Shown: positions 46,677-60,244 of the stretch, one piece after another
How positions within the stretch are numbered: the first letter of the stretch is position 1
How the letters are laid out: the number at the start of each line of letters is the position of its first letter
Source: Wenyingzhuangia marina
Lineage (GTDB): Bacteria; Bacteroidota; Bacteroidia; Flavobacteriales; Flavobacteriaceae
Assembly (NCBI RefSeq): GCF_900130035.1
Contig: NZ_FQXQ01000003.1
Location: 248,001-312,000, forward strand
Length of the DNA: 64,000 nt
Direction: 5' to 3'
Translations under genes and position numbers: made by a program
Notes under the pieces: model-generated
Told to the model about the DNA's origin: nothing
Databases searched by the model: none
Seen by the model: the letters and a program-made list of their open reading frames with translations, nothing else

Positions 46677-47948
46677 TTATTTTATTATTTTAGAAAAATA
46701 AGTTTTCTTAGAATCAGTGTCAGTCACTTTAAGAATATAAATACCATTTGCATAGTTGCTAAAGTTTATTTTTTTAGATGTGGTTGTTATAATTGCTCTT
46801 CCACTTAAATCGTATACATCAGCTTCAACTTTCCCTGTATAATTGATGTTTAAATCGTTCACAACAGGATTTGGGTAGACAGATATTTCATCAGAATTGT
46901 AAATGTTGTTTGATGATAAAGTAACACCTGTATCAACCAAACTCTTCAAGGTGTTTTCAGTTAGTAATTTAACATTATTGTTATTTCCTGTTCCAGGAGC
47001 ATACCAATCATAAACACCAGACCCATACCAAACAATAGTTCCGTGTCCTCCTGTTCTTGGATTGAACTGAGCTCCTTGGATTTCGTTTCCATCACAATTG
47101 TCTAGTAATATTTCTGCATTTAAAGTACTTTCAAATTCAGTTCTACGATCAGCAATTGTTCCACCAATATCATCATAAATTCTTCCAAAATCTAAATTGT
47201 ATTGACAAGCACGGTTTTTCTTTTCAGTGTCAGCTGATAAAAACTCAATCGATAGTGTAGAAAAAGAACAGGTAGCAACAGTAGTTGTAATATCTGAAAT
47301 ATATGAACTAGAAGAATCACCACTCCAATTAGCACCCCAAGCATCTGCGGTATTTGCAGCATTAACTGTAACATCTCCAAAAGTTTGGTTTGGTCTATAT
47401 TCCCATGGATTAGTTAAACCATCAAAAGTTCCAATAACCTCTAAAGCTTTTCCTGCATAGTTTCCTAAAAAGATATTTCCTCCAGCTTCATAAAAAGAAC
47501 GAATACTACTAATAAAAGCATCTTCTAAAGCAATACATGCAGCATCACCACCATTCCATTCAAAACCAGTTTCTTTAATTACACAATGTCTTGTTACACC
47601 ATCTCCTTCAGTAGTTCCCCTAGGCCATTCATTTAAACGTTCAGGATAAGTTGCACCATCACTTTGTATCCAAATAGCATCATAACTACTGATGTCAGCA
47701 CCTTCAGCTACATCTTGAAATGAAAAATATGTTCCACTAATATCTGCTTGAGACGGAATAAAAACATCCATAAACCATACAGCGGCAGCTCTATCGTCAT
47801 CATAAGTGAATCCATCAGCAGCTGCAGGAATATTATCATTATAAGTAGGAGCTTGTCCTAAAAAAGCGATGCTCTTAGATTGTGCTTTTAAATTGTAGCA
47901 TTGTAATAAAAAAGAGACAGCAATTAATTTTAAAGTAATTGTTTTCAT
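46677..47948 (-). CDS. DUF4960-like protein with T9SS C-terminal sorting domain
   Basis: The 423-residue protein has a signal peptide (cleavage near LKAQ-SKS). A large domain (about 25-345) shares IAFLGxA, AAVWFMDVF...YFSFQDVAEGADISSYDAIWI and IVWYGSGVYDWYAPG...NVKLLTENTLKSL with the lipoprotein at 50861. The C-terminal 69 residues (ISVYPNPVVNDLNI...YFSKIIK) form a type A T9SS sorting domain, so the protein is probably secreted or attached outside. The domain is DUF4960-like, known from fructan loci; no enzyme activity is established. It has its own promoter (see the dyad at 48144). Confidence 0.8.
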   Translation of the reverse strand: MKTITLKLIAVSFLLQCYNLKAQSKSIAFLGQAPTYNDNIPAAADGFTYDDDRAAAVWFMDVFIPSQADISGTYFSFQDVAEGADISSYDAIWIQSDGATYPERLNEWPRGTTEGDGVTRHCVIKETGFEWNGGDAACIALEDAFISSIRSFYEAGGNIFLGNYAGKALEVIGTFDGLTNPWEYRPNQTFGDVTVNAANTADAWGANWSGDSSSSYISDITTTVATCSFSTLSIEFLSADTEKKNRACQYNLDFGRIYDDIGGTIADRRTEFESTLNAEILLDNCDGNEIQGAQFNPRTGGHGTIVWYGSGVYDWYAPGTGNNNNVKLLTENTLKSLVDTGVTLSSNNIYNSDEISVYPNPVVNDLNINYTGKVEADVYDLSGRAIITTTSKKINFSNYANGIYILKVTDTDSKKTYFSKIIK

Positions 47949-48030
47949 TTTAGAATAATTTAAAGTTTATTAATAATAGTTTGTGTTATATTCTAAATTA
48001 TTGACAAATAAATGATGATTGTTTTGTGTT

Positions 48031-48171
48031 TGTTTCAAACTAATAAGGATTTGATAAGTAGTTCAAAGAGATGTAAAGACTCCTTGTTTTATATAGGTTT
48101 CAACGGTGACTTAAATCGAATTTTATTTTTTTAATTATGATTATGTAACTAGTACTTATGGTATAGTTACA
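48031..48171 (-). promoter_or_regulatory. Candidate PUL promoter/operator 2 (before the T9SS DUF4960 gene)
   Basis: Inverted half-sites TGTAAC (48144-48149) and GTTACA (48166-48171) have 16 bp between them. A TGTTTCAAACTA word (48031-48042; minus strand TAGTTTGAAACA) lies 102 bp from the first half-site. The same parts at the same spacing occur before the MFS gene (60081-60221). The TAnTTTG element is one base short of the usual -7 box. Confidence 0.65.
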
Positions 48172-48320
48172 GTATATTTTATATGTTGGTACTAAGAGTA
48201 AATGGTTACATAATTAAGAGAGCAATAAAAAGATTACAAATGACAGATTTAATAAAGTAGCAGATGAAACATATTATTTTAAAACGCAGAAAAAGTTCTA
48301 ATGATTAGGTGTTTAAACAT

Positions 48321-48356
48321 AAAAAAAGCATCTAAGTTTATTTTTAGATGCCTTTT
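48321..48356 (-). terminator. Terminator of the main fructan operon
   Basis: A stem with GCATCTAA / TTAGATGC and flanking A- and T-runs lies 24 bp beyond the fructokinase stop codon on the minus strand. Confidence 0.85.
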
Positions 48357-48379
48357 AATATTAAAACTTAACAATTGTT

Positions 48380-49288
48380 TTATTGTTTTTGAGGGTTTAA
48401 AAAGTGATAAATATCTTCTTCTTTGATTTCTGGGTTGGCCCCTTCGTGTCCTGCTACAATAGAACCTATGGCACAAGCAAAATCAATTGCTTTTTGTGGA
48501 TTTCCATTACTTAGTAATTGTGTTATCAACGAAGCTAAAAAAGAATCTCCAGCACCTACTGTATCAATTACTTTTATTAAAAAACCAGCATTATAATACA
48601 AAATACCTTTCCATAACAATACTGCTCCATGTTTCCCTTTTGTAACACAAATAGAATCAGTATTTGTGTATTGAGAAATGAAGTGAATATTTTCTTCAAT
48701 AGATTTTGAGGTTGAACCTAGTTCTGCAGAAATTTCTAACAATTCTTCATCATTAAACTTAATAAAATCAGCATGACTCATTAAGTTTTTTAAAGTATCT
48801 ATTTTGTAATGTGAAGCTCTTAAGTTTACATCAAATACTTTATAAGATTTATTGTTTTTTAACAAGTTGTAAAGCGTTGTTCTGGAAACTTCATCACGAC
48901 AAGCCAAACTTCCATACAAGAAAACATCAGAAGAGGAAACAATATTTTTTAGACTTTGGTTAATTTCTATTTTATCCCATGCTGATGGATGCTCAATAGT
49001 ATAGGTAGCAGAACCACTCTTACTAAGTTCTACTGTAACAACTCCAGTGTCATAGTTGTTTTTTATAATAATTCCCGAAGTGTCTATTCCATGATTATTA
49101 ATATAGTCGACAAGAGTACTTCCATCCTTATCATTACCCACAGCACTAATCATAGTTACAGGAAAACCAAAAGATTTAATTCTTAAGGCTAAATTTAAAG
49201 GGGCTCCACCAATTTTTTTAGCAGTTTTAAAAACATCAAACAATACTTCGCCGTAGCTAACAAATTTTAGGTCTTTATTATGAAACAT
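48380..49288 (-). CDS. Fructokinase (PfkB family)
   Basis: The 302-residue protein is a PfkB-type sugar kinase with GGAPLNLALRIKSFG (27-41) in the substrate region and DTVGAGDSF (242-250) with the catalytic base D248. It probably phosphorylates imported fructose in the cytoplasm. It is the last gene of the operon and begins 1 bp after the endo-GH32 stop codon. Placement in a locus with two GH32 enzymes and an MFS porter makes fructose the likely substrate. Confidence 0.88.
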   Translation of the reverse strand: MFHNKDLKFVSYGEVLFDVFKTAKKIGGAPLNLALRIKSFGFPVTMISAVGNDKDGSTLVDYINNHGIDTSGIIIKNNYDTGVVTVELSKSGSATYTIEHPSAWDKIEINQSLKNIVSSSDVFLYGSLACRDEVSRTTLYNLLKNNKSYKVFDVNLRASHYKIDTLKNLMSHADFIKFNDEELLEISAELGSTSKSIEENIHFISQYTNTDSICVTKGKHGAVLLWKGILYYNAGFLIKVIDTVGAGDSFLASLITQLLSNGNPQKAIDFACAIGSIVAGHEGANPEIKEEDIYHFLNPQKQ

Positions 49289-49289
49289 A

Positions 49290-50849
49290 TTAATAAGGAT
49301 TTTTTATGGTTAAGTTTGAGAATACAGTTTGATTGTTTTCACTAAAAAAACTCCATTTTTTTCCTGTAACATCATATAATCTATTGCTAAATGCAACCTC
49401 ATCGTTAATATAAAGCACACAAATATCTTCATTTGTGGTAATGCTGACTTTGTATTCAGTATTAGCAGTAAAATTAAAAGGGACATGGTTTAGATATAAA
49501 TCATTTCCATCATTAACATTGTAAGCTGCTACTCTGTTAAAACCAGGTTCAAAAGCAATTTTAAAAGCAGTATTACTTTCTGTTTCATGATTTAATAATA
49601 CTCCAAAATCTCCATTAGATTGCATCTCAATTTTAAATTCAATATGATTTGATTTTTTTAAGCTATTAAAAGAAATAATTGCATCACTAGAAGTTCCATC
49701 TAAAATAAAAGTATTATTGTTTTGAGTAACAGTACCCATTATATTTTCTACAGTTAATGTTGCATTGTTTGTGTAAACAGGAGCAATGCTTTCAAGTTGT
49801 TTAACACTTAAAGTACCATCGTTGTTTTGAATAAGTTCATGTGTAACAATATTACCTCCCCATTCTTTATTTCCTGTATTATTTTCTGGTGATTTTCTAG
49901 CAGTCCAACCAAATAAATAACGTTTGTTTCCATCTGAAGCAGTTTTGGCTGCATATAAATAGCTTCCATCAAAACGATCTAAAGTAGGAGTTGTCCATGG
50001 TCCGTTAGGAGAGTTTGCTATTCTATAATGTGTACCTGTATGACTACTCCAGTTTTCTGAAAAGATTAAATACCAATAGGCTCCCATTTTAAAGATATCA
50101 GCACACTCTAACATTAAATAGTTTTCTTGTGGTGTGGTAGTGTAAATAGGATTTTGTACTGTCCAATTGTTTGTTGCAGGATCATCAGAAGTAAATAATA
50201 AAACGACAGCTTTTCTGGCAGGGTCTGTTTGTGTAGACATCAACATCCAATATTTCCCATCTTCTTCATTATAGAATACATGTGGGTCTCTAAAATCAAA
50301 ATCAGTATAACCAGTAGGAGCAGTTATCTTAAAATCGTCAATTTTAGTCCAATTTTCTAAATCTGTACTCGTAGCACACAAAACACTTTCTCTAGGGTTA
50401 TTTTGAACAAAAGGAGTGTTTCCATTATGTCCTGTATAGTAAAAATAATAGGTGTCTCCAACTTTAACCACAGAACCTGTTCCTACTCCAAAGTCAGGCT
50501 CATCTGAAGCTCCATAAGGAATCATTCTACCTTTATAATTAAACTCTGTAAAATTAGTTGTTTCAAAATTATGTATGTCATGAAACCCTTTACCGGCAGG
50601 TTTTGTTTTGGCATCGTGTAAAAAGAATAAATTAAACTTACCATCATTATAATAAGGCATAATATCTCCTACATAACCAGAGGTGTAATATGGATCTGTT
50701 TCTCCCAACCATTGTTCTGGTGGTAGTGGATATACGTTTGTTTGAGTCTCTGGATCTACAGGGACTTGAGTAAATGCGTCATCATCATTTGAGCAAGCCA
50801 AAATGGTAAACACGGATAGGTATGTAAATATTTTATTAGTTAAGTTCAT
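49290..50849 (-). CDS. GH32 lipoprotein, probable endo-levanase
   Basis: The 519-residue lipoprotein (lipobox LACS, Cys19) has an acidic leader SNDDDAF, typical of surface-exposed lipoproteins in Bacteroidota. A five-blade propeller carries the GH32 triad D62 (YVGDIMPYY), D188 (FRDPH) and E248 (LECADIFK). A beta-sandwich follows (about 370-519). The nucleophile block GDIMPYY departs from the exo-type WMNDPNG and resembles the GWVGDPMPYY-like block of Bacteroides endo-levanases such as BT1760. It therefore probably cuts the fructan outside the cell, before SusCD uptake. Confidence 0.83.
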   Translation of the reverse strand: MNLTNKIFTYLSVFTILACSNDDDAFTQVPVDPETQTNVYPLPPEQWLGETDPYYTSGYVGDIMPYYNDGKFNLFFLHDAKTKPAGKGFHDIHNFETTNFTEFNYKGRMIPYGASDEPDFGVGTGSVVKVGDTYYFYYTGHNGNTPFVQNNPRESVLCATSTDLENWTKIDDFKITAPTGYTDFDFRDPHVFYNEEDGKYWMLMSTQTDPARKAVVLLFTSDDPATNNWTVQNPIYTTTPQENYLMLECADIFKMGAYWYLIFSENWSSHTGTHYRIANSPNGPWTTPTLDRFDGSYLYAAKTASDGNKRYLFGWTARKSPENNTGNKEWGGNIVTHELIQNNDGTLSVKQLESIAPVYTNNATLTVENIMGTVTQNNNTFILDGTSSDAIISFNSLKKSNHIEFKIEMQSNGDFGVLLNHETESNTAFKIAFEPGFNRVAAYNVNDGNDLYLNHVPFNFTANTEYKVSITTNEDICVLYINDEVAFSNRLYDVTGKKWSFFSENNQTVFSNLTIKNPY

Positions 50850-50860
50850 CTTTTTAAATT

Positions 50861-52261
50861 TTAATTATCTGCTAAATAGTTTAGACTATTTGCTGTTAAA
50901 AGTTTGATATTATCAATAAAACCATTGGCTTGACTTGGTGTTCCACTGCTGTCATCTTCATTATACCAATCATAAGCACCCATAGAAATAACAACTGTTT
51001 TAATATCAGAAGTACCTCCAGGGAATTCAGCAATGGTTACACGACCGTTTAATCCATCATCCCATGCTTCACTAGCTAGATTATTTCCTCCAGTTTGATC
51101 TCTCCATCCAGCACCATCATTATATCCTCCCCACTCTGGTAAAAACCACCATGCAGTATGGTTTAATCTAAATGTTCCTGCTTCTAATAAATTGGCTTTT
51201 CCTGTAGCAAAAGTGTCTAACCCCAAAAAGATAGGATGATCTTCATGACTTACAAATGACATTCCCCATGAATTACCATCTACAAACCCATTTGGCGGAA
51301 AATCTCCAAAAACATTATTAGGCCCTTTACCTGAAGGAACAATATTCAATGCTTCTACATATTGAGAGGCAAATGTGGTTAATAATAAGTTACCTCCATT
51401 AGTTTGATATGTTTTTAATGCAGTTGTAACACTAGCATCTAAAGCAATAGTTGGTAGACTAGTAGCTTCATCATAATGCCACCAAATAACATCAATACCT
51501 TCTAAAGAAGCTCCGTTTTTAATATCTGTAAAAGAAATGTACTGAGCTCCTGCGTAGTTGGCAAACAACCAGTTTGATGCAGCAATTTCGTCTAAATTTG
51601 AGATTGCTTGTTTAGAAGCTGATGTTCCTAAAAAGGCAATGACTGGTCCGCTAAGAGGAGTGGTGATATTTACTGTATATTCTTCTGTCAATCCTGTTGA
51701 AATGACATTGAATTTTACTGGACTAGAAAAATCAATAGTGCTACCAGAGGTAATACTGGCAGTCACTCCTTCAGATAATTCAAGGGTAGGTTGCAATGCT
51801 GTCAGGTCAGTACCTTCAGGCATGGTAAGCGCAATAACTTTGGAGTTGTGATTGATACTTGCTGAAAGTTCTCCAATCTTAAAACTTGTAATGGGTTTTT
51901 GAGTACTAACGTTAACCGCATATTTTTTAAAGATATTTCCACCATAAACATTATAAGTAACAGTATTGCTAAAATCAATACTAGTTCCTAGTTCAGGGAT
52001 AATAGTAGTTCCGTTTGGAATAAAAATTTCTGGAGTAATAGCAGTAATATCTGTTCCATAAGGTAGCGTAGCTGTTATCTTACTTTCTTTATTATTGATT
52101 TCTGCACTGATATTATTTACAGTAAACGAATTAATGTTTACAGAAACATTGGTAACAAAAGCAGATTCATCAAAGTTGTCTTCACAAGCTGATAAAAGAC
52201 TCACTAAAAATAGAAGGGCACATGACAGCAATCCTATTTGTTTATTTATTATTTTTTTCAT
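50861..52261 (-). CDS. Surface glycan-binding lipoprotein with DUF4960-like domain
   Basis: The 466-residue lipoprotein (lipobox LSAC, Cys26) has two N-terminal immunoglobulin-like modules (about 35-120 and 125-205) with the repeated pattern ITSFKIGEL...GSTIDFSSPVKFNV, then the DUF4960-like domain (about 207-466; IAFLGTSASKQAISN, YNVWWHYDE-type segment, VISMGAYDWYNEDD). It occupies the SusE/SusF position after SusD, like BT1761 in the B. thetaiotaomicron levan locus, so it is a likely surface fructan-binding protein. It begins 18 bp after SusD. Confidence 0.8.
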   Translation of the reverse strand: MKKIINKQIGLLSCALLFLVSLLSACEDNFDESAFVTNVSVNINSFTVNNISAEINNKESKITATLPYGTDITAITPEIFIPNGTTIIPELGTSIDFSNTVTYNVYGGNIFKKYAVNVSTQKPITSFKIGELSASINHNSKVIALTMPEGTDLTALQPTLELSEGVTASITSGSTIDFSSPVKFNVISTGLTEEYTVNITTPLSGPVIAFLGTSASKQAISNLDEIAASNWLFANYAGAQYISFTDIKNGASLEGIDVIWWHYDEATSLPTIALDASVTTALKTYQTNGGNLLLTTFASQYVEALNIVPSGKGPNNVFGDFPPNGFVDGNSWGMSFVSHEDHPIFLGLDTFATGKANLLEAGTFRLNHTAWWFLPEWGGYNDGAGWRDQTGGNNLASEAWDDGLNGRVTIAEFPGGTSDIKTVVISMGAYDWYNEDDSSGTPSQANGFIDNIKLLTANSLNYLADN

Positions 52262-52279
52262 CGTTTAGCTTTTTTAGAG

Positions 52280-53974
52280 TTAGTATCTTTTGTTTTGTTT
52301 GTATAGACCTTGGCTGAAATTAATTTGTGCCAATGGAATAGGGCAGAACTCTTCTTTGTTCTTGTCAAAACCAGCATCTAGGTAATATCCTCTTTTTGTT
52401 TTCTCTTCAGCATAGTATGCGTTTAATGTTTCTGAAGCAACTCCCCATCTAACCAAATCAAAAAATCGGTAACCTTCCATGGCAAATTCTAACCTACGTT
52501 CCCAACGTAAAGCTTTGCGAGCAAAATCTTGACTCCACACACAGTTTACCCCATCTTCATACTGACTAATTAAATTGTTTGAAGTATAGCTACTTGTTAA
52601 AGTTGTACTTGCAGCAGCTCTTGCTCTAATTTGGTTGATGATTGGTAAAGCATCATTGTGTTGTCCCATTTCTATCAACGCTTCAGCTCTAATTAATAAT
52701 ACATCAGCATAACGAATTAGGATTCTGTTTTTTGAATTCCCATAAAAAGGATCGATATTTACAAAACAACCACAGTCTGGTTGTACATTTTCTTTTAAAG
52801 AAGCAAAATATCCATAGGTTCCAGGAGATCTGTTCCAGCTTTCTTCATAGATATAATCCTCTGCATATTTAAAAGGCAATCCAGGAATGGCTACAGTGTG
52901 ATATAATCTTGGATCTACATCAAAACTATTTAATTGATTATAATCTAAATCAGTATCATTAAAAGTGTCAAACATTGGCAATCCATCTGCAGTAGTTTTA
53001 AAGGCATTAACTAAATTTTGACTAGGTTTATGAAAATCACAACAACCCAAACCTTGTGGTACCGATAATACATCTCCAAAATTTAATCTTCCATGCAAAG
53101 TTCCATCATTATCTGAATACTGTACAGCAAACACAGATTCAGAACCATTTTCATAACTACCTGGTAAAAAGTTAAATCCAAAATCAGCTTCTAAAGAATA
53201 AGTTCCTATAACTTGATCTGTAGCATTAATTACTTTTTGTAATGTTTGTTGATTGATATTGGTTACATTGTAATCCTCATCTTGCTCATAAGCCTGGTAC
53301 AATCTTGTTTTAGCCAAATAAGCATAAGCAGCATATTGGTTTACACGACCTACTTGTGATTGGGTAGGTGGAGTGTTGTTTGCTGCAAATTCAAAATCAG
53401 TAGCAATGTTTTCCCAAAGTTGATCGTCAGTTAATGCTCTGTTTGACACCAAACCATATTCTTCTGGGACTGTATCTTCAGTTACATAAGGAATGTTTTT
53501 AAACATAATTTTAAGCATAAAGTAAAAATGACCTCTTAGAAAATGCATTTCACCCAATCTTGATTTTTTTTGAGGGAATTCTTGTTCTGTAATCTGATTT
53601 AATGCTGCAATAGCTTTGTTTGCTCTAGAAATCCCTACATAGTAATTATACCATAGTTTGTCTAATTCGGCAAAGTCAGTACGAATATTATTTGAGATTT
53701 CAAAAAAGTGAAAAGCTTGAATATCGTTGGTTCCACTACCTCCTTTATAAGCATCATCTGCTCTAACATTTCCATATGGCCATAAACTAAATGGGGTGTC
53801 ATAATGGTCGTTTCCTAAAGCAGCATAAGCTGAAGTAATAAAACCATCCACATTATCAGCATTAATAACATCTTCTTCAGACAATACGCCTTTTGGTTTA
53901 ATTTCTAAAAAGTCCTCGCAGGACACAGTTGTGAATAATAATAAACAACTAAATATATATACAATCGTTTTCAT
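52280..53974 (-). CDS. SusD/RagB-type nutrient-binding lipoprotein
   Basis: The 564-residue lipoprotein (lipobox VSC, Cys19) begins EDFLEIKPKGVLSEEDV, the standard SusD N-terminus. It contains the TPR-like helical pattern and the C-terminal FFDLVRWGVASETL and CPIPLAQINFSQGLYKQN blocks. It forms the lid over the SusC channel in the outer membrane and binds the oligosaccharide. It lies 16 bp after SusC in the fructan operon. Confidence 0.95.
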   Translation of the reverse strand: MKTIVYIFSCLLLFTTVSCEDFLEIKPKGVLSEEDVINADNVDGFITSAYAALGNDHYDTPFSLWPYGNVRADDAYKGGSGTNDIQAFHFFEISNNIRTDFAELDKLWYNYYVGISRANKAIAALNQITEQEFPQKKSRLGEMHFLRGHFYFMLKIMFKNIPYVTEDTVPEEYGLVSNRALTDDQLWENIATDFEFAANNTPPTQSQVGRVNQYAAYAYLAKTRLYQAYEQDEDYNVTNINQQTLQKVINATDQVIGTYSLEADFGFNFLPGSYENGSESVFAVQYSDNDGTLHGRLNFGDVLSVPQGLGCCDFHKPSQNLVNAFKTTADGLPMFDTFNDTDLDYNQLNSFDVDPRLYHTVAIPGLPFKYAEDYIYEESWNRSPGTYGYFASLKENVQPDCGCFVNIDPFYGNSKNRILIRYADVLLIRAEALIEMGQHNDALPIINQIRARAAASTTLTSSYTSNNLISQYEDGVNCVWSQDFARKALRWERRLEFAMEGYRFFDLVRWGVASETLNAYYAEEKTKRGYYLDAGFDKNKEEFCPIPLAQINFSQGLYKQNKRY

Positions 53975-53990
53975 GATTATTAAGTTTTAA

Positions 53991-56900
53991 TTAAAGTGAA
54001 ATGTTTAATCCTAAAGTAAATGTTAATGGTAATGGATAACCAAATCCTGGATTTTCAGGATCAATACCTGTAAAATTAGACGAACTAATGGTTAGTAAAT
54101 TTTGTGCATTTACATATACTCTAAAGTTTTGGATTTTATAGGTTTCTATGATTTTTTTAGGAATTGTATACCCTAATTGTAATACACGCAGTTTTAAATA
54201 ACTACCGTTTTCTATATAATAAGTTGAAAACCTTGATTCAGCATTACTATCAACAGTAGTTAATGCAGGAATAGTTGAGTTTGGATTTTGTGGAGACCAA
54301 GCGTTTAATAATCGGGTTCCTTTGTTTGATCCTACATCATCAACACTCCAAAAATCGGTTTGATACTTTGTTTGGTTAACTACATCTATATCACCTACAC
54401 CTTGCCAAAAAGTTGTCAAGTCAAAATTCTTATAACCTAAAGAAACATTAAATCCATAGTTAAAACCAGGGTTTGGATTTCCTATCCACGTTCTGTCCTC
54501 ACTGTCAATAGTTCCATCATTATTTAAATCTTTATACCTAATACGTCCTAAACCTTTTCCAGGTTGAATAGCAGAGTTTTCAACTTCTTGTTGTGATGTA
54601 AACAGTCCATCGGCTACATGTCCGTACATAGAATTAATAGGTCTTCCTAGAATATTATCATCTAGACCATTTCCTCCGTAATTGTTCTTTACTTCTTCAG
54701 GAAGTTTTGTGATTTGATTTCTGTTTGCAGAAAGGTTTGCCGACATTTCATATTTTAATCCCCAGTCAGTATTGTTTTTATAATTCAAAGCAAATTCAAT
54801 TCCTTCATTTTCCATAGAAGCTCCATTAACCCATCTATTACCACCTTCACCAATGACTCCTAAATATGGAGGAAGTACTAAGATATCTTCAGTTACTTTT
54901 TTATAAACATCAACACTACCTGTTAATCTTTGATTAAAGAAACCAAAGTCAAGACCAATATTTGTTTGAGTGGTAGTTTCCCATTTTAAATCATCGTTTC
55001 CTGTTTGAGTGGCAATAAAACCAGAAGGTAACAACCCTGAACCTGCTCCTGATAAGTCATAAGCAGTTCCGTAAGAGGTGTTCCAAGTAGGATCCCCACC
55101 AGCATAATTGGCTAAGTATAAAGAATAAATAGCTTCGTTACTAATTTCTTGATTACCAGTTTGTCCCCAACCTGTACGTAGTTTTAAATCTGAAAAGAAG
55201 GCTAAATTATTTTTGGCAAATTCTTCTTTGTTAATTCTCCATCCTGCAGAAAAGGCAGGAAAGGTACCAAAGCGATTGTTTTTTCCAAATCTAGAAGAAC
55301 CATCTCTTCTAATGGTTGCAGAAAATAAGTAACGACTATCATAATCATAAGTAGCTTTTCCAAAATAGGATAACAAACTATATGAACTAGCTGAACCATA
55401 GGTATAAGCTTCTCCTGTACCTGCATCCGGATACATATAATCAGGATCTTCTGTTATAAAATCTTCTTTTCTTAAAGTAGTGTTTCTCGCATCTTCTTTA
55501 AACATCTCTGTACCTGCTAATAAATTAATATTATGATTGTTCAATTTTAAATCATATTGTACAGTATTAGTCCATGTCCATTTTAGATTGTTTGACTGCT
55601 CAATAGAAACAGAGTTTTGATCATTCTTTAAATATCCAGATACATAACTACGTTGTAAAGATCTTTTGTGAAAATCACTAAGATCCAACCCAAAACTAGT
55701 TTTAAAAGTAAGGTTGTCTATTGGTCTTAACTCGGCATAAGTATTACCAAACAAGCGCATATAGCTATAACCATTGTCTTTATTGTATTCTAATAGTCTA
55801 ACAGGGTTTTGTCTATCATTCATTCCTCCAACAGGACCTCCCCATCCTTTTCCATCTACAGTTCGAACTGGAATAATAGGTAAAGCTCTTAAAGCAGGGT
55901 CTAAAACTCCTGGATCTGAAACCTCGTTGGTTCTGTTGATAGTAAAGTTTTCTCCAATTTTTAATTTTCCATCAAAAAAATTATAAGAAGAATTGATACG
56001 AGAAGACAAGCGTTTAAAATTAGTAGTTTTTACAATTCCTACATTATCATAATATCCCAAAGAAAACATATAAGCTCCTTTTTCAGAACCATTAGACATA
56101 GATAGATTTACCGAATTAGCTTTTCCTAATTGAGAAATTTCATCATACCAATTGGTGTTTGAAGACTTAATGGTTTGCTCTGTGTTTAAATATTCTGGAA
56201 CTAACACATTATTCAGTGTAGGTTTTCCATTATAAACTCCCCAGTTAAACTGATAACTTAAGTTGTTTGTATTAGGATCTATACCATCGTTTATATTTGC
56301 TTGCCATAATACTTGTCCATATTCTTTAGCGTTTAAAACGTCTAATTTATTAGCATAGTTAGATAGGGTTGAATAGTAATCTAGATTAAGTCTCATTTTT
56401 CCTTCTTTTCCCTGTTTGGTTGTAATAATAATAACACCATTAGAAGCTCTAGAACCGTAAATACTTGCCGAAGATGCATCTTTTAATACTTGTATAGATT
56501 GAATATCATTCGGGTTTAATTCATGCATACCTCCTTTGGTTGGTACTCCATCAATTACATACAAAGGATCGGTGTTGTTTAAAGTACCAATACCTCTAAT
56601 ATTTATTTTAGTATTTCCTCCACTAGGAGAACCATCGGTAGAAATATTTACTCCTGCTAAACGACCTTGTAAAGCTTTTATAGGGTTAGGTTCTGTTTGT
56701 TTGTTAAGTTCATCCATATCTACCACAGAAACAGCTCCAGTAATGTCTGCTTTTTTCTGTGAGGTATATCCGGTAACGATTACTTCATCTAATTGTTCGT
56801 TACTAGGGTTTAGTTTGATGTTTAGAGTAGCATTGTTATTTATAACTACTATTTTAGTTGTATATCCTAAATAACTAAGCTCTAAACTTTCACCTATTGA

Positions 56901-57089
56901 GATATTATTGATGATAAAATTTCCGTCAAAATCGGTAATGGTTCCAATTGATTTTCCCTTGATGACAATAGATACACCAGGTAGCGGCATATTATCTTCA
57001 GAAGATACAACAGTACCTTTCACTTCTATTTCTTGAGCCATTAAAACAGTGAGCTGAAGAAAGAATAAAAGAATTAATTTATACTTCAT
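53991..57089 (-). CDS. SusC-type TonB-dependent outer-membrane transporter
   Basis: The 1032-residue protein has a signal peptide (cleavage near LMAQ-EIE) and a carboxypeptidase-like regulatory domain (about 22-100). A TonB-box-like DEVIVTGY segment (about 101-108) precedes the plug (about 115-225, GRLAGVNISTDGSPSGG, LYVIDGVP, SIYGSRASNGVIIITTKQG), and the rest is a 22-strand barrel ending PLTFTLGLNISL. It imports fructo-oligosaccharides across the outer membrane with SusD. It lies 17 bp after the exo-GH32 gene. Confidence 0.95.
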   Translation of the reverse strand: MKYKLILLFFLQLTVLMAQEIEVKGTVVSSEDNMPLPGVSIVIKGKSIGTITDFDGNFIINNISIGESLELSYLGYTTKIVVINNNATLNIKLNPSNEQLDEVIVTGYTSQKKADITGAVSVVDMDELNKQTEPNPIKALQGRLAGVNISTDGSPSGGNTKINIRGIGTLNNTDPLYVIDGVPTKGGMHELNPNDIQSIQVLKDASSASIYGSRASNGVIIITTKQGKEGKMRLNLDYYSTLSNYANKLDVLNAKEYGQVLWQANINDGIDPNTNNLSYQFNWGVYNGKPTLNNVLVPEYLNTEQTIKSSNTNWYDEISQLGKANSVNLSMSNGSEKGAYMFSLGYYDNVGIVKTTNFKRLSSRINSSYNFFDGKLKIGENFTINRTNEVSDPGVLDPALRALPIIPVRTVDGKGWGGPVGGMNDRQNPVRLLEYNKDNGYSYMRLFGNTYAELRPIDNLTFKTSFGLDLSDFHKRSLQRSYVSGYLKNDQNSVSIEQSNNLKWTWTNTVQYDLKLNNHNINLLAGTEMFKEDARNTTLRKEDFITEDPDYMYPDAGTGEAYTYGSASSYSLLSYFGKATYDYDSRYLFSATIRRDGSSRFGKNNRFGTFPAFSAGWRINKEEFAKNNLAFFSDLKLRTGWGQTGNQEISNEAIYSLYLANYAGGDPTWNTSYGTAYDLSGAGSGLLPSGFIATQTGNDDLKWETTTQTNIGLDFGFFNQRLTGSVDVYKKVTEDILVLPPYLGVIGEGGNRWVNGASMENEGIEFALNYKNNTDWGLKYEMSANLSANRNQITKLPEEVKNNYGGNGLDDNILGRPINSMYGHVADGLFTSQQEVENSAIQPGKGLGRIRYKDLNNDGTIDSEDRTWIGNPNPGFNYGFNVSLGYKNFDLTTFWQGVGDIDVVNQTKYQTDFWSVDDVGSNKGTRLLNAWSPQNPNSTIPALTTVDSNAESRFSTYYIENGSYLKLRVLQLGYTIPKKIIETYKIQNFRVYVNAQNLLTISSSNFTGIDPENPGFGYPLPLTFTLGLNISL

Positions 57090-57106
57090 AATTTAGTTTT
57101 TATAGT

Positions 57107-58702
57107 TTAGTTTATGTTTAATTGGTTAGCCTTTAATATCGATATTTCTGCATCTTTCTCCGAAGATTCAATAGAAAGGTTCATATATGGTTGGTTTGTG
57201 AAAAATATTTCAGTCAATACCTCTTCTCCATTATTAAAGAAGATCTCTATAGATGTTTTATCTAATATGATTTTAAATGCTGCAGAGTTATGTCTCTTGT
57301 CTAAGTTTGCTTTTGATATTTTATTAGCAAAATCATTAGAAAAGTTAATAATTCCTGATTTCTTACGATCTATAAACAAGAAGTTTTCTTTATTGTTAAT
57401 TCCAAATTTTAAAGTATCTCCAATAGTATTGTTTAAAGAAAAAGTATAAGTGTCAGTCTTCATGTTTCTTAAGCTAACATCAATTACTGATTTAGATAAA
57501 TCTAATTCATCCCCTTTTAACAAAATGGTATTGTTTTTAAATACTATATTTTTTTTGGTAATGGTTTCTTTAAAATAATTACCCAATTGTGTTACAGGAG
57601 TTGATATTAACTTATATTCTGAACTAGAGTATGATAGTTTTAACTCTCGTGGTAGCGTCATACTACTTCTCCAGGTTTCAGTAGGAACATCTTGTGCATA
57701 TTGCCAGTTAGACATCCATCCAATATAAGTAGGATTAGCACTAGGGCTGTTGTTCCAAGTAACACCTGCATAGTTGTCTTTTCCAGAATCTAACCACAAA
57801 GCTTCTTTTTTACTTAATTGATTTTTAAACAGAGGGTCTAACTTAAAAGTTTTTCCATCAAAATCTCCAATAAAATATTGAGTTGCAGAACCTCCATTAG
57901 GTCCCCCAGGATTTAAACTTTGCAACAGAACCCATTTTGTGTTTGCAGAGTCGTTTATCTTCATTGGAAAAAAATCAGGACATTCCCAAACACCTCCATG
58001 AGCACCAATATTTTGACCAAATTCTGATAAATATGTCCAATCTATTAAGTTTTTTGAACTATAAAATTGTGCTCGGTCATTGGCTGCTAAAGTCATAATC
58101 CATTGTTGATGAATGTCATCCCATGTAACTTTAGGGTCTCTAAAATTTTTAATACCTGGGTTTTTAAGAACTGGATTGTTTGAGTATTTTGTCCAAGTCA
58201 TTCCGTTATCTAATGAATAGGCTATTCCTTGACTTTCAATATCAATTTTTCCTGCTTTTTCTTTAATAGGATCATGATAGGTATAAATAGCAACAACAGG
58301 AGTGCGGGTTTCATCTCCAAAACCAGAAGTATTGTGATGGTCTACCACTGCACTTCCTGAAAATATATATCCTAATTTATCTGGATACAAAGCAATAGGT
58401 TGTTGTTTCCAAGCTATTAAATCTGTACTAGTGGCATGCCCCCAGTGCATAGGTCCCCATTTGTTTCCGTTCGGATAATACTGAAAATACAAATGATAAG
58501 TTCCGTCTAAATAAAACATTCCATTAGGATCATTCATCCAATTTTCTTCAGGAGTGAAATGGAAATTAGGTCTATATAATTGCTCTTCCGTAAGAACAAC
58601 CTTTTTTTCTAATGTAGGAGAACTCTTCTTCTCGTTTTTATGAATACTGTTACAGCCTATTATGGCTATAAGGAGTAGTCCTGTTAGTGTAAGTTTTTTC
58701 AT
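57107..58702 (-). CDS. GH32 lipoprotein, probable exo-fructanase
   Basis: The 531-residue lipoprotein (lipobox IIGC, Cys17) has the complete GH32 triad: D58 in WMNDPNG, D189 in FRDPK and E240 in WECPDF. A five-blade propeller (about 45-360) is followed by a beta-sandwich (about 380-531). The WMNDPNG motif fits exo-type invertase, levanase or fructanase activity, so it probably releases fructose from oligosaccharides in the periplasm. Its start overlaps the stop codon of the MFS gene (ATGA), which suggests translational coupling. The linkage preference (beta-2,1 or beta-2,6) cannot be read from the sequence. Confidence 0.88.
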   Translation of the reverse strand: MKKLTLTGLLLIAIIGCNSIHKNEKKSSPTLEKKVVLTEEQLYRPNFHFTPEENWMNDPNGMFYLDGTYHLYFQYYPNGNKWGPMHWGHATSTDLIAWKQQPIALYPDKLGYIFSGSAVVDHHNTSGFGDETRTPVVAIYTYHDPIKEKAGKIDIESQGIAYSLDNGMTWTKYSNNPVLKNPGIKNFRDPKVTWDDIHQQWIMTLAANDRAQFYSSKNLIDWTYLSEFGQNIGAHGGVWECPDFFPMKINDSANTKWVLLQSLNPGGPNGGSATQYFIGDFDGKTFKLDPLFKNQLSKKEALWLDSGKDNYAGVTWNNSPSANPTYIGWMSNWQYAQDVPTETWRSSMTLPRELKLSYSSSEYKLISTPVTQLGNYFKETITKKNIVFKNNTILLKGDELDLSKSVIDVSLRNMKTDTYTFSLNNTIGDTLKFGINNKENFLFIDRKKSGIINFSNDFANKISKANLDKRHNSAAFKIILDKTSIEIFFNNGEEVLTEIFFTNQPYMNLSIESSEKDAEISILKANQLNIN

Positions 58703-60018
58703 TGATATTTATTTTCTAGTTTTTGACTTAATTTTTCTAGTGTAATTCCTTTGGTTTCAGGCATCATAAATTTTACAAAGATCAATTGAAACACCATAGC
58801 TATAGTAAAGATGAGAAACACTGTTCCTGCTCCAATAGAGGAGAATAAAAAGGGAATTAAAGAAGGGATTATAGCAGCGAGTACCCAATGAGTTGAGCTT
58901 CCAAATGCTTGTCCTGAAGCTCTTAAATGATTTGGAAATATTTCCGAAATAAAAACCCAAATAACAGCTCCTTGACCAATGGCATGAGAAGCTATAAATA
59001 GGAATAAAAAAATGGGAACCGCCATTCCAGTCCATCCTAAATAAAATGCAGCAGAGACTAATCCTAATGAAATAATATAGCCTATAGACCCAAAATACAT
59101 AAGTGTTTTTCTTCCTAATTTATCTATTAAGAACACCCCTAATAAAGTAAAAATCATATTAACAATACCTACACCAATACTACTTAACAATGCAGTTCTT
59201 TCTCCTAAACCTGCTTCTTCAAAAATTCTAGGAGCATAGTATAGAAATGCATTGATTCCAGATAATTGATTAAAAAAGGCCATTAAAAAAGCAAGGATTA
59301 ATGGAAATCTGTATTTTTTCATGAAAATGTTTTCATGTTTTAAATTATCATTACTATTATTAATTCCTTGAATGATTTTTTCCACATCCTGATTAGGATC
59401 GATGGTGTTTAAAATAACTTTAGCTTCGTTTATTCTTCCTTTAGAAATTAACCAACGTGGACTTTGTGGAATGGTAAGAACAAAGAGTGTATAGATAACC
59501 GCAGGAATGGCTTCAACTCCTACCATCCATCTCCAATCGTTTTCACTAATACCGTTTAATAAATAGTTAGATAAAAAAGCAACTAAGATTCCAAACACAA
59601 TATTAAATTGGTAAAGAGATACCAATCGACCTCTATCTTTTGCTGGAGCAATTTCTGAAATATAAGTGGGAGCAGCAATAGTAGAAACCCCTACACCAAG
59701 TCCACCAATAAATCTAAAAACTGCAAAAGTAATTGGATCATTAGCCATTCCAGACCCAATGGCCGAGACTGCATAAAATATACCTATAATTAATAAGGTA
59801 TGTTTTCTTCCTATTTTATTGGTTGGAATTCCTCCTAAAAGAGCACCTATAACTGTACCCCATAATGCCATAGCCATGACAACTGATCCATGAAATGCAT
59901 CTGAGGTATTCCATAATAGTTGTAGTTTTTTATCAGCACCAGAAATAACAACGGTATCAAATCCAAAAAGGAAACCTGCTAGAGCTGCTGTGATAGACCA
60001 CATTAAAATTTTTCTCAT
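58699..60018 (-). CDS. MFS sugar porter (probable fructose transporter)
   Basis: With the ATG at 60018 the protein has 439 residues (MRKILMWSITAALAGFLFGFDT); an in-frame TTG further upstream is less likely. It has 12 membrane helices and sugar-porter motifs: GGIPTNKIGRKHTL, RFIGGLGVGVSTIAAPTYISEIAP, PQSPRWLISKGR and PETKGITLEKL at the C-terminus. It moves a monosaccharide, probably fructose from the GH32 enzymes, across the inner membrane. It is the first gene of the seven-gene operon and overlaps the exo-GH32 gene by 4 bp. Confidence 0.9.
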   Translation of the reverse strand: MRKILMWSITAALAGFLFGFDTVVISGADKKLQLLWNTSDAFHGSVVMAMALWGTVIGALLGGIPTNKIGRKHTLLIIGIFYAVSAIGSGMANDPITFAVFRFIGGLGVGVSTIAAPTYISEIAPAKDRGRLVSLYQFNIVFGILVAFLSNYLLNGISENDWRWMVGVEAIPAVIYTLFVLTIPQSPRWLISKGRINEAKVILNTIDPNQDVEKIIQGINNSNDNLKHENIFMKKYRFPLILAFLMAFFNQLSGINAFLYYAPRIFEEAGLGERTALLSSIGVGIVNMIFTLLGVFLIDKLGRKTLMYFGSIGYIISLGLVSAAFYLGWTGMAVPIFLFLFIASHAIGQGAVIWVFISEIFPNHLRASGQAFGSSTHWVLAAIIPSLIPFLFSSIGAGTVFLIFTIAMVFQLIFVKFMMPETKGITLEKLSQKLENKYQ

Positions 60019-60030
60019 TTTCGTAAATAT

Positions 60031-60047
60031 TTTAGTTGTCAACTAAA
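60031..60047 (-). promoter_or_regulatory. Palindrome in the MFS gene leader
   Basis: The perfect palindrome TTTAGTTG-T-CAACTAAA lies 13 bp before the MFS start codon, inside the likely 5' leader. It could be an operator or an RNA hairpin affecting translation. There is no equivalent before the T9SS DUF4960 gene. Confidence 0.4.
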
Positions 60048-60080
60048 TTATTAATGAAATTGAGAGTTTTATTTTAAAGA

Positions 60081-60244
60081 TGTTTCAAAGTATTGTGGTT
60101 TTTTGAATTAATGCTATTAAATGTCTTAATCCTTTAGCAATAAAGAGGTTTAGGTTTTTTTTATATATCCTAAAGATTATAGAATTACAGTCATGTAACA
60201 TCGTATTAAGAATATGTTACATGATTGATATTGTATGTAACATA
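60081..60244 (-). promoter_or_regulatory. Candidate PUL promoter/operator 1 (before the MFS gene)
   Basis: A 10-bp inverted repeat CATGTAACAT (60192-60201) / ATGTTACATG (60214-60223) contains TGTAAC (60194-60199) and GTTACA (60216-60221) separated by 16 bp. A third TGTAAC lies at 60236-60241. The word TGTTTCAAAGTA (60081-60092; minus strand TACTTTGAAACA) is 102 bp away, as in promoter 2 at 48.0-48.2 kb. The dyad lies about 176 bp upstream of the MFS start and is a candidate HTCS binding site. Confidence 0.65.

Follow-up and report, generated by a model that had tools for sequence, protein, structure and literature searches.

Hybrid two-component system (HTCS) proteins, membrane-bound regulators with an AraC-type DNA-binding domain, govern much glycan use in Bacteroidota. 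One is encoded in a fructan polysaccharide utilization locus (PUL) in a 64,000-nucleotide stretch of Wenyingzhuangia marina contig NZ_FQXQ01000003.1 (hereafter the window). All of its genes lie on the minus strand, in the order HTCS, major facilitator superfamily (MFS) transporter, GH32, SusC, SusD, DUF4960 protein, GH32, PfkB kinase and a DUF4960 protein with a Por secretion tail of the type IX secretion system (T9SS) (Pfam scan; Table 1). The HTCS, with sensor, kinase, receiver and AraC-type helix-turn-helix (HTH), adjoins the MFS operon, and its Peripla_BP_4 sensor, which we take to correspond to the COG1879 type, together with the GH32, SusCD, MFS and PfkB neighbours, fits the HTCS_Fru (BT1754) group. 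The comparisons below indicate that the promoters of the MFS operon and of the secreted DUF4960 gene are probably both targets of this adjacent fructose-type HTCS, each carrying two operators, A and B.

Within the window, TGTAAC-N16-GTTACA was found exactly at 48144-48171 and 60194-60221 and nowhere else, and the word TGTTTCAAA(C/G)TA had its sole perfect matches at 48031-48042 and 60081-60092, 102 bp from the dyad in both promoters. The dyads lie 196 and 176 bp upstream of the start codons at 47948 and 60018, which were checked. All of these placements had been given in an initial annotation of the window and were confirmed. None of 200 first-order Markov copies of the window contained an exact dyad, while dyads with up to two mismatches were not rare (7 observed versus 4.4 expected). 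Equally good dyads were also few genome-wide: four exact copies in 3.24 Mb, the two outside the window falling inside open frames of 528 and 274 codons. When the two promoters were compared in register, 92 of 180 positions agreed, against a mean of 58.6 (standard deviation 5.5) and a best value of 73 at other offsets. Both promoters share AATAATTTAG at +169 from the dyad start, an element that the initial annotation had not noticed, and both AATAATTTAG and TTTGAAACA are identical in the two.

A search with the HTCS sensor (amino acids 1-360, E<=1e-30) across 397 genomes of the family identified 39 loci in 36 genomes, and the 38 loci outside the window were retrieved. In 33 of the 38 an MFS gene followed the HTCS gene on the same strand, 177-554 bp away; the exceptions either had a distant transporter (L081, L085) or were without one (L111-L113). 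With the window this gave 34 HTCS-MFS intergenic regions, of which 32 were non-redundant after removal of the near-duplicates L086 and L093. An alignment, and position-blind motif finding on the 32 regions, both recovered four half-sites, A1 (GTAaCAatTTTaaA), A2 (GTAACA), B1 (TTAAC) and B2 (TTGnAACATnnnTAAAA), and A and B recurred between HTCS and transporter genes across Flavobacteriaceae. The weak matches ATGT, TCCTT and AGGTTT, to which the initial annotation had pointed in the two window promoters, were not recovered as motifs in the relatives.

Site A proved to be a tandem direct repeat of xGTAACA with a period of 20-22 bp. Across 28 relatives the similarity of the A1 and A2 motifs was 9.4 in direct orientation and -9.9 as reverse complement, with a column-permuted maximum of 4.4, and the second half-site read GTAAC in 18 and GTTAC in 8 of the 28. 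The period was 20, 21 or 22 bp in 13, 9 and 6 promoters, respectively, as expected of an HTCS operator built on direct repeats of about 21 bp. Site A appears inverted in the window because GTWAC is nearly its own complement. Thus the proposal that the dyad marks an operator of the adjacent HTCS is supported by sequence, while the inverted-repeat form given to that operator is not.

The shared word overlies the downstream half of another tandem site, B, and TTTGAAACA within it is half of B. In the relatives' promoters the conserved part at B2 is TTGnAACAT. B2 resembles, in direct orientation, A2 (a similarity reached by 0 of 1000 permutations) and A1 (3 of 1000). B1 resembles A1 (4 of 1000) and A2 (20 of 1000). 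The available text of PMC9723704 gives TAnnTTTG as the flavobacterial sigma-A -7 box and TAnnTTGY as the SM5 box. The putative -7 elements found here are likewise TAnnTTAG- or TAnnTTGY-like, the difference in the window being that the likely box TAATTTAG, in the same place in both promoters, is one position off TAnnTTTG (7 of 8 matched). The distance from the B2 TTG to a box of the form TAnnTTnG or TAnnTTG was 38 bp in 25 of 28 promoters, a set that retained L093 despite its near-duplicate status; L078, L083 and L100 had no box of this form 38 bp from B2. The word itself was considered as a -7 box and rejected on the conserved TTGnAACAT, on the rarity of TAnTTTG at B2 (2 of 28 promoters, each from the window's genus) and on the likely -7 box 38 bp downstream. 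The unusual TAnTTTG promoter proposed at the word is therefore not upheld.

Both sites could be placed for the spacing count in 27 of the 32 non-redundant promoters, the positions of A1, A2 and B2 being transferred by hand. The A2-B2 spacing was 112 bp in 9, 113 bp in 11, 114 bp in 5 and 115 bp in 2. In a subgroup formed by L082 and L086 the spacing, with half-sites picked by eye, was 102 bp, which falls short of the others by 11 bp or roughly one helical turn. The DNA between the sites was unalignable, with 48% identity between genomes versus 45% after shuffling, and the distance from the HTCS stop codon to A2 ranged from 20 to 369 bp. A palindrome, YTGAWnWTCAR with at most one mismatch, was also observed 54-55 bp before B2 in 14 of 26 promoters (L087, L096 and L101 among them), compared with a resampled mean of 1.3 and maximum of 5. 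It had no match in either window promoter, where the best candidates had 3 and 2 mismatches and lay elsewhere in the spacer. The palindrome resembles, in both orientations, what we take to be an IHF-type site.

A profile of the promoter was trained on 24 sequences, none from the window's genus, and the same exclusion applied to a combined A1+A2+B2 score. In its own genome the window's promoters ranked first and second (E 2.9e-11 and 4.7e-6), both nearly full length; the third match had E 0.023, and the matches from there on were partial (7 of 12 were inspected, for nearby open reading frames only). The combined score was 46.0 and 25.6 for the two promoters, the next value in the window, 12.9, overlapping the first. 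In the stretches retrieved from the 38 relatives, the best match not beside an HTCS gene scored 18.4 and lay in a SusD gene.

The HTCS, profile and transporter scans covered what, judged by genome handles, are the same 397 genomes, and the profile scan used stricter filters. Matches at E<=0.001 were obtained in 42 genomes. At E<=7.5e-10 a match was present in 30 of 36 genomes with the HTCS versus 0 of 361 without, indicating that the operator tracks the regulator; the matches in 12 of the 361 HTCS-less genomes were weak (best E 1.3e-5). Twenty-four of the 30 make up the training set, and six do not (G000, G003, G036, G060, G379 and G213, the last a near-duplicate of a training sequence). Two matches in one genome were found in G000 and G003 only, the second being the DUF4960 promoter.

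Similar transporters often occur where the HTCS is lacking: 179 of the 397 genomes contain a transporter match at E<=1e-90. The architecture was absent from all 18 loci with a 75-80% identical transporter not beside an HTCS gene (16 in HTCS-less genomes, 2 elsewhere in HTCS genomes); their best combined score was 2.4, and the profile gave two weak matches (0.013 and 0.33). Among 12 HTCS-linked transporter loci, the combined score was at least 44 in 10, most of them training loci, and 14.8 and 3.7 in the other two; the profile missed one of the 12 (L323).

The layout was also recovered beyond the training set. Within a collection of 80 named loci, 14 flavobacterial test loci with the sensor domain matched were counted; L153 and L215 are contigs of training loci and were not counted as held out. 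Ten of the 14 matched at E<=1e-8, including Kaistella haifensis, Flavobacterium glycines, F. panacis, two Galbibacter and Zunongwangia pacifica. Two matches were weak (L145, 0.0099; L179, 0.00031, partial) and two loci had none (L147 from Tamlana, and L154, whose contig stops within the gene). Outside the family, E values of 4.6e-6 to 0.03 were obtained in four Hymenobacter, one Lacihabitans, one Pedobacter and one Chitinophagaceae locus. A loose pattern of the layout, searched in 40 genomes, hit 29 places: 14 HTCS-MFS promoters, the two DUF4960 promoters (G000, G003) and 13 elsewhere; a third place in G000 lay inside an 841-codon frame. This pattern was rejected as a filter, its reversed control giving 23 matches. 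A separate observation concerns Flavobacterium sp. Sd200, where a second profile match (L152:5693-5871, minus strand) is oriented divergently to the HTCS gene, at the side where a BT1760-like GH32 gene is located; it is perhaps another doubled regulon.

The secreted DUF4960 gene had been assigned to the same regulon by the initial annotation, a link that the A-B layout and the second-ranked profile match bear out: its promoter keeps the 113-bp spacing, and the gene probably belongs to the HTCS regulon. In G144, G339 and G146 the orthologues start 31, 31 and 49 bp past the kinase gene (L116-L118), and no profile match was found upstream of them. In the window's genus the two genes are 431 and 417 bp apart (window and L115), and the interval contains a terminator-like hairpin and a promoter with A, B and the likely -7 box. 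Set against the 31-49 bp of L116-L118, the more than 400 bp and the hairpin here suggest that the DUF4960 gene departed from the operon in this genus. G186 has a homologue of 41% identity, located upstream of the kinase. L120 (G392) holds a broken secreted DUF4960 copy 132 bp past the kinase, of which only about the first 116 residues were found, in two frames.

Several results weigh against the reading of the two promoters as two-operator targets of the HTCS. Five of the 32 promoters (L079, L082, L107, L108, L110) fell outside the spacing count; the combined score or profile did find the layout in L107, L108 and L110 at a spacing of 115 bp, the score being weak in L107 and L108. The B1-B2 similarity was not above chance (reached by 235 of 1000 permutations), and B1 is weak in the window. 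The -7 boxes chosen in L082/L086 and L079 lay 22 and 46 bp from B2 instead of 38. The profile found no match in six of the 36 HTCS genomes (G029, G186, G280, G339, G348, G404), matched at 30 of 39 HTCS genes when counted by locus, and had no match at E<=1 at the Bacteroides loci retrieved. When the search was confined to the window, the profile matched the DUF4960 promoter over the B-to-(-7) part alone (E 7.8e-6). Outside Flavobacteriaceae, where half-sites were picked by eye, the A-B spacing was 97-99 bp in three Pedobacter, 100 bp in Lacihabitans, 110 bp in L155 and L189, and 89-96 bp in six Hymenobacter. Thus 113 bp does not hold everywhere, nor do the spacings differ by whole helical turns; strict helical phasing of A and B across the phylum was not supported by these spacings.

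In the mechanism that we propose, the HTCS, with its BT1754-like domain layout, would act on target promoters that each have two operators: A, a tandem half-site pair about 160-185 bp before the inferred start site, and B, a tandem pair that, as sequence conservation shows, ends just upstream of the promoter, its TTG lying 38 bp before the likely -7 box. Sugar binding to the periplasmic domain would lead to phosphorylation of the receiver and bring AraC-domain dimers to both operators. At B, the bound dimer would touch RNA polymerase; inspection by eye showed no clear -33 element in this promoter. The fixed A-B length suggests that a second dimer at A, held about 113 bp upstream, may assist cooperatively, with the spacer bent or looped to allow contact. 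In the window's genus, the hairpin and the second A-B-(-7) layout would make the secreted DUF4960 gene a regulon unit of its own. We advance only tentatively, and regard as rather doubtful, a more specific picture in which two dimers or one tetramer bridge the two complete operators over a bend of about 113 bp, the mid-spacer palindrome helping in about half of the species, to form a compact enhancer loop anchored at the membrane.

Whether the DUF4960 promoter arose by duplication of the MFS promoter, with its geometry inherited and not independently constrained, appears evenly balanced. The in-register agreement of the two promoters and their identical AATAATTTAG and TTTGAAACA point that way, and the DUF4960 spacer, when compared with an MFS spacer from a different genus (L077, G021), gave z 3.1, making an old duplication of the promoter possible. 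However, the window's two spacers show no clear homology to one another (z 1.0, versus 6.4 between DUF4960 orthologues), so a recent copy is not evident. Duplication in any case bears on origin and not on function, as both copies retain the elements in G000 and G003.

Somewhat less probable, though a serious contender, is that B alone is the activating HTCS site and that A serves separately (storage, HTCS autoregulation or another AraC-type regulator), the constant distance being merely inherited from one ancestral promoter. Consistent with this, A adjoins the 3' end of the HTCS gene, with A1 starting 0-51 bp past the stop codon in many genomes, though 105-155 bp past it elsewhere; within one family the three elements, A, B and the -7 box, are inherited together, and the spacing differs between families. 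Yet the spacer is near saturation and still varies by only 3 bp in length, against hundreds of bp for the stretch upstream of A; a half-site is common to A and B; and the second promoter of the same genome keeps 113 bp although its spacer shows no clear homology to that of the first. Least of all do we credit the reading of the initial annotation, an inverted-repeat HTCS operator with a TAnTTTG promoter at the shared word, which is natural within the window alone, where site A holds a perfect dyad and the word holds TAnTTTG, but is made very improbable by the direct repeat at A and the conserved B2 and -7 box in the relatives.

Table 1. Regulatory elements and genes of the fructan PUL, by position in the window
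Feature	Position	Strand	Description and basis
HTCS regulator, 932 amino acids	60261..63059	-	Peripla_BP_4 sensor, HisKA/HATPase, receiver, AraC-type HTH; presumed binder of A and B; Pfam scan
Extra half-site, MFS operon	60236..60242	-	TGTTACA, third tandem copy, 21 bp upstream of A
Site A, MFS operon	60186..60221	-	TGTAACA (from 60221) and TGTTACA (from 60200), period 21 bp; includes dyad
Site B, MFS operon	60070..60110	-	B2 TTTGAAACATCTTTAAAATA (60089-60070), degenerate B1 near 60110-60096; includes word
Likely -7 box, MFS operon	60043..60050	-	TAATTTAG, 38 bp downstream of B2 TTG
MFS sugar (fructose-type) transporter	58699..60018	-	First operon gene, ATG at 60018
GH32 enzyme	57107..58702	-	Domain scan
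SusC	53991-57089	-	
SusD	52280-53974	-	
DUF4960 protein	50861-52261	-	In SusE/F position
BT1760-like GH32	49290-50849	-	
PfkB sugar kinase	48380-49288	-	
Terminator-like hairpin	48319..48354	-	GGCATCTAA stem and T7, 3' of kinase gene; 75-base fold -18.9 kcal/mol
Site A, T9SS DUF4960 gene	48136..48171	-	TGTAACT (from 48171) and AGTTACA (from 48150), period 21 bp
Site B, T9SS DUF4960 gene	48020..48060	-	B2 TTTGAAACAAACACAAAACA (48039-48020), B1-like CTTATCAAATCC upstream; includes word
Likely -7 box, T9SS DUF4960 gene	47993..48000	-	TAATTTAG
Secreted DUF4960 protein, 423 amino acids	46677..47948	-	Por secretion tail (T9SS)

The conserved layout, with A about 113 bp from B and B 38 bp from the -7 box, makes promoter contact by such a regulator accessible to a direct spacing experiment. 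It also provides a genome-searchable signature of fructose HTCS regulons in flavobacteria, and it links the secreted DUF4960 protein to fructan use.

At araBAD of Escherichia coli, AraC occupies tandem half-sites about 21 bp apart beside the promoter and a distant site from which it represses by looping. The arrangement described here likewise would place AraC-type domains on tandem half-sites, spaced by about 21 bp, next to the promoter and on a distant site; it differs in having a membrane-tethered regulator and paired half-sites at both positions, about 113 bp apart.

Among HTCS proteins the closest counterpart is HTCS_Fru of B. thetaiotaomicron, BT1754, which the available text of PMC3878776 identifies as the fructose HTCS. 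The two systems share a periplasmic-binding-protein-type sensor, a regulon with inner-membrane transporter, fructokinase and GH32, and operators in the form of direct repeats of about 21 bp, which for Bacteroides HTCSs are predictions; they differ in that the profile had no match in the Bacteroides loci retrieved and that the available text of PMC3878776 and PMC11501099 describes no fixed-distance paired operators for BT1754. According to the accessible part of PMC3404733, chromatin immunoprecipitation sequencing (ChIP-seq) of BT1754 showed that the intact HTCS binds DNA, most strongly in the 3' region of its own gene. Since gene order differs in Bacteroides, the likeness of that site to site A, just past the 3' end of the HTCS gene, is only suggestive. 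Literature searches on HTCS (looping, tandem sites, TAnnTTTG, flavobacterial fructan/GH32) found no fixed-distance paired HTCS operators, most subscription papers lying outside their coverage, and the accessible text of PMC5061871, PMC12125979, PMC3878776, PMC11501099, PMC10766802 and PMC3404733 describes no such layout.

Direct repeats as such are already known for HTCS proteins: motifs predicted for 16 Bacteroides HTCSs are direct repeats averaging 21 bp (PMC3878776, available text). The double operator at fixed distance appears to be a new variant. Its nearest parallel in spacing is found in the SusR-like regulators of Bacteroides, for which the same text describes direct repeats separated by a long spacer of fixed length (67 or 77 bp) and proposes same-face binding. 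Those regulators belong to another family, however, and there two far-apart sites make up one operator, whereas here each of the two sites is a complete tandem operator.

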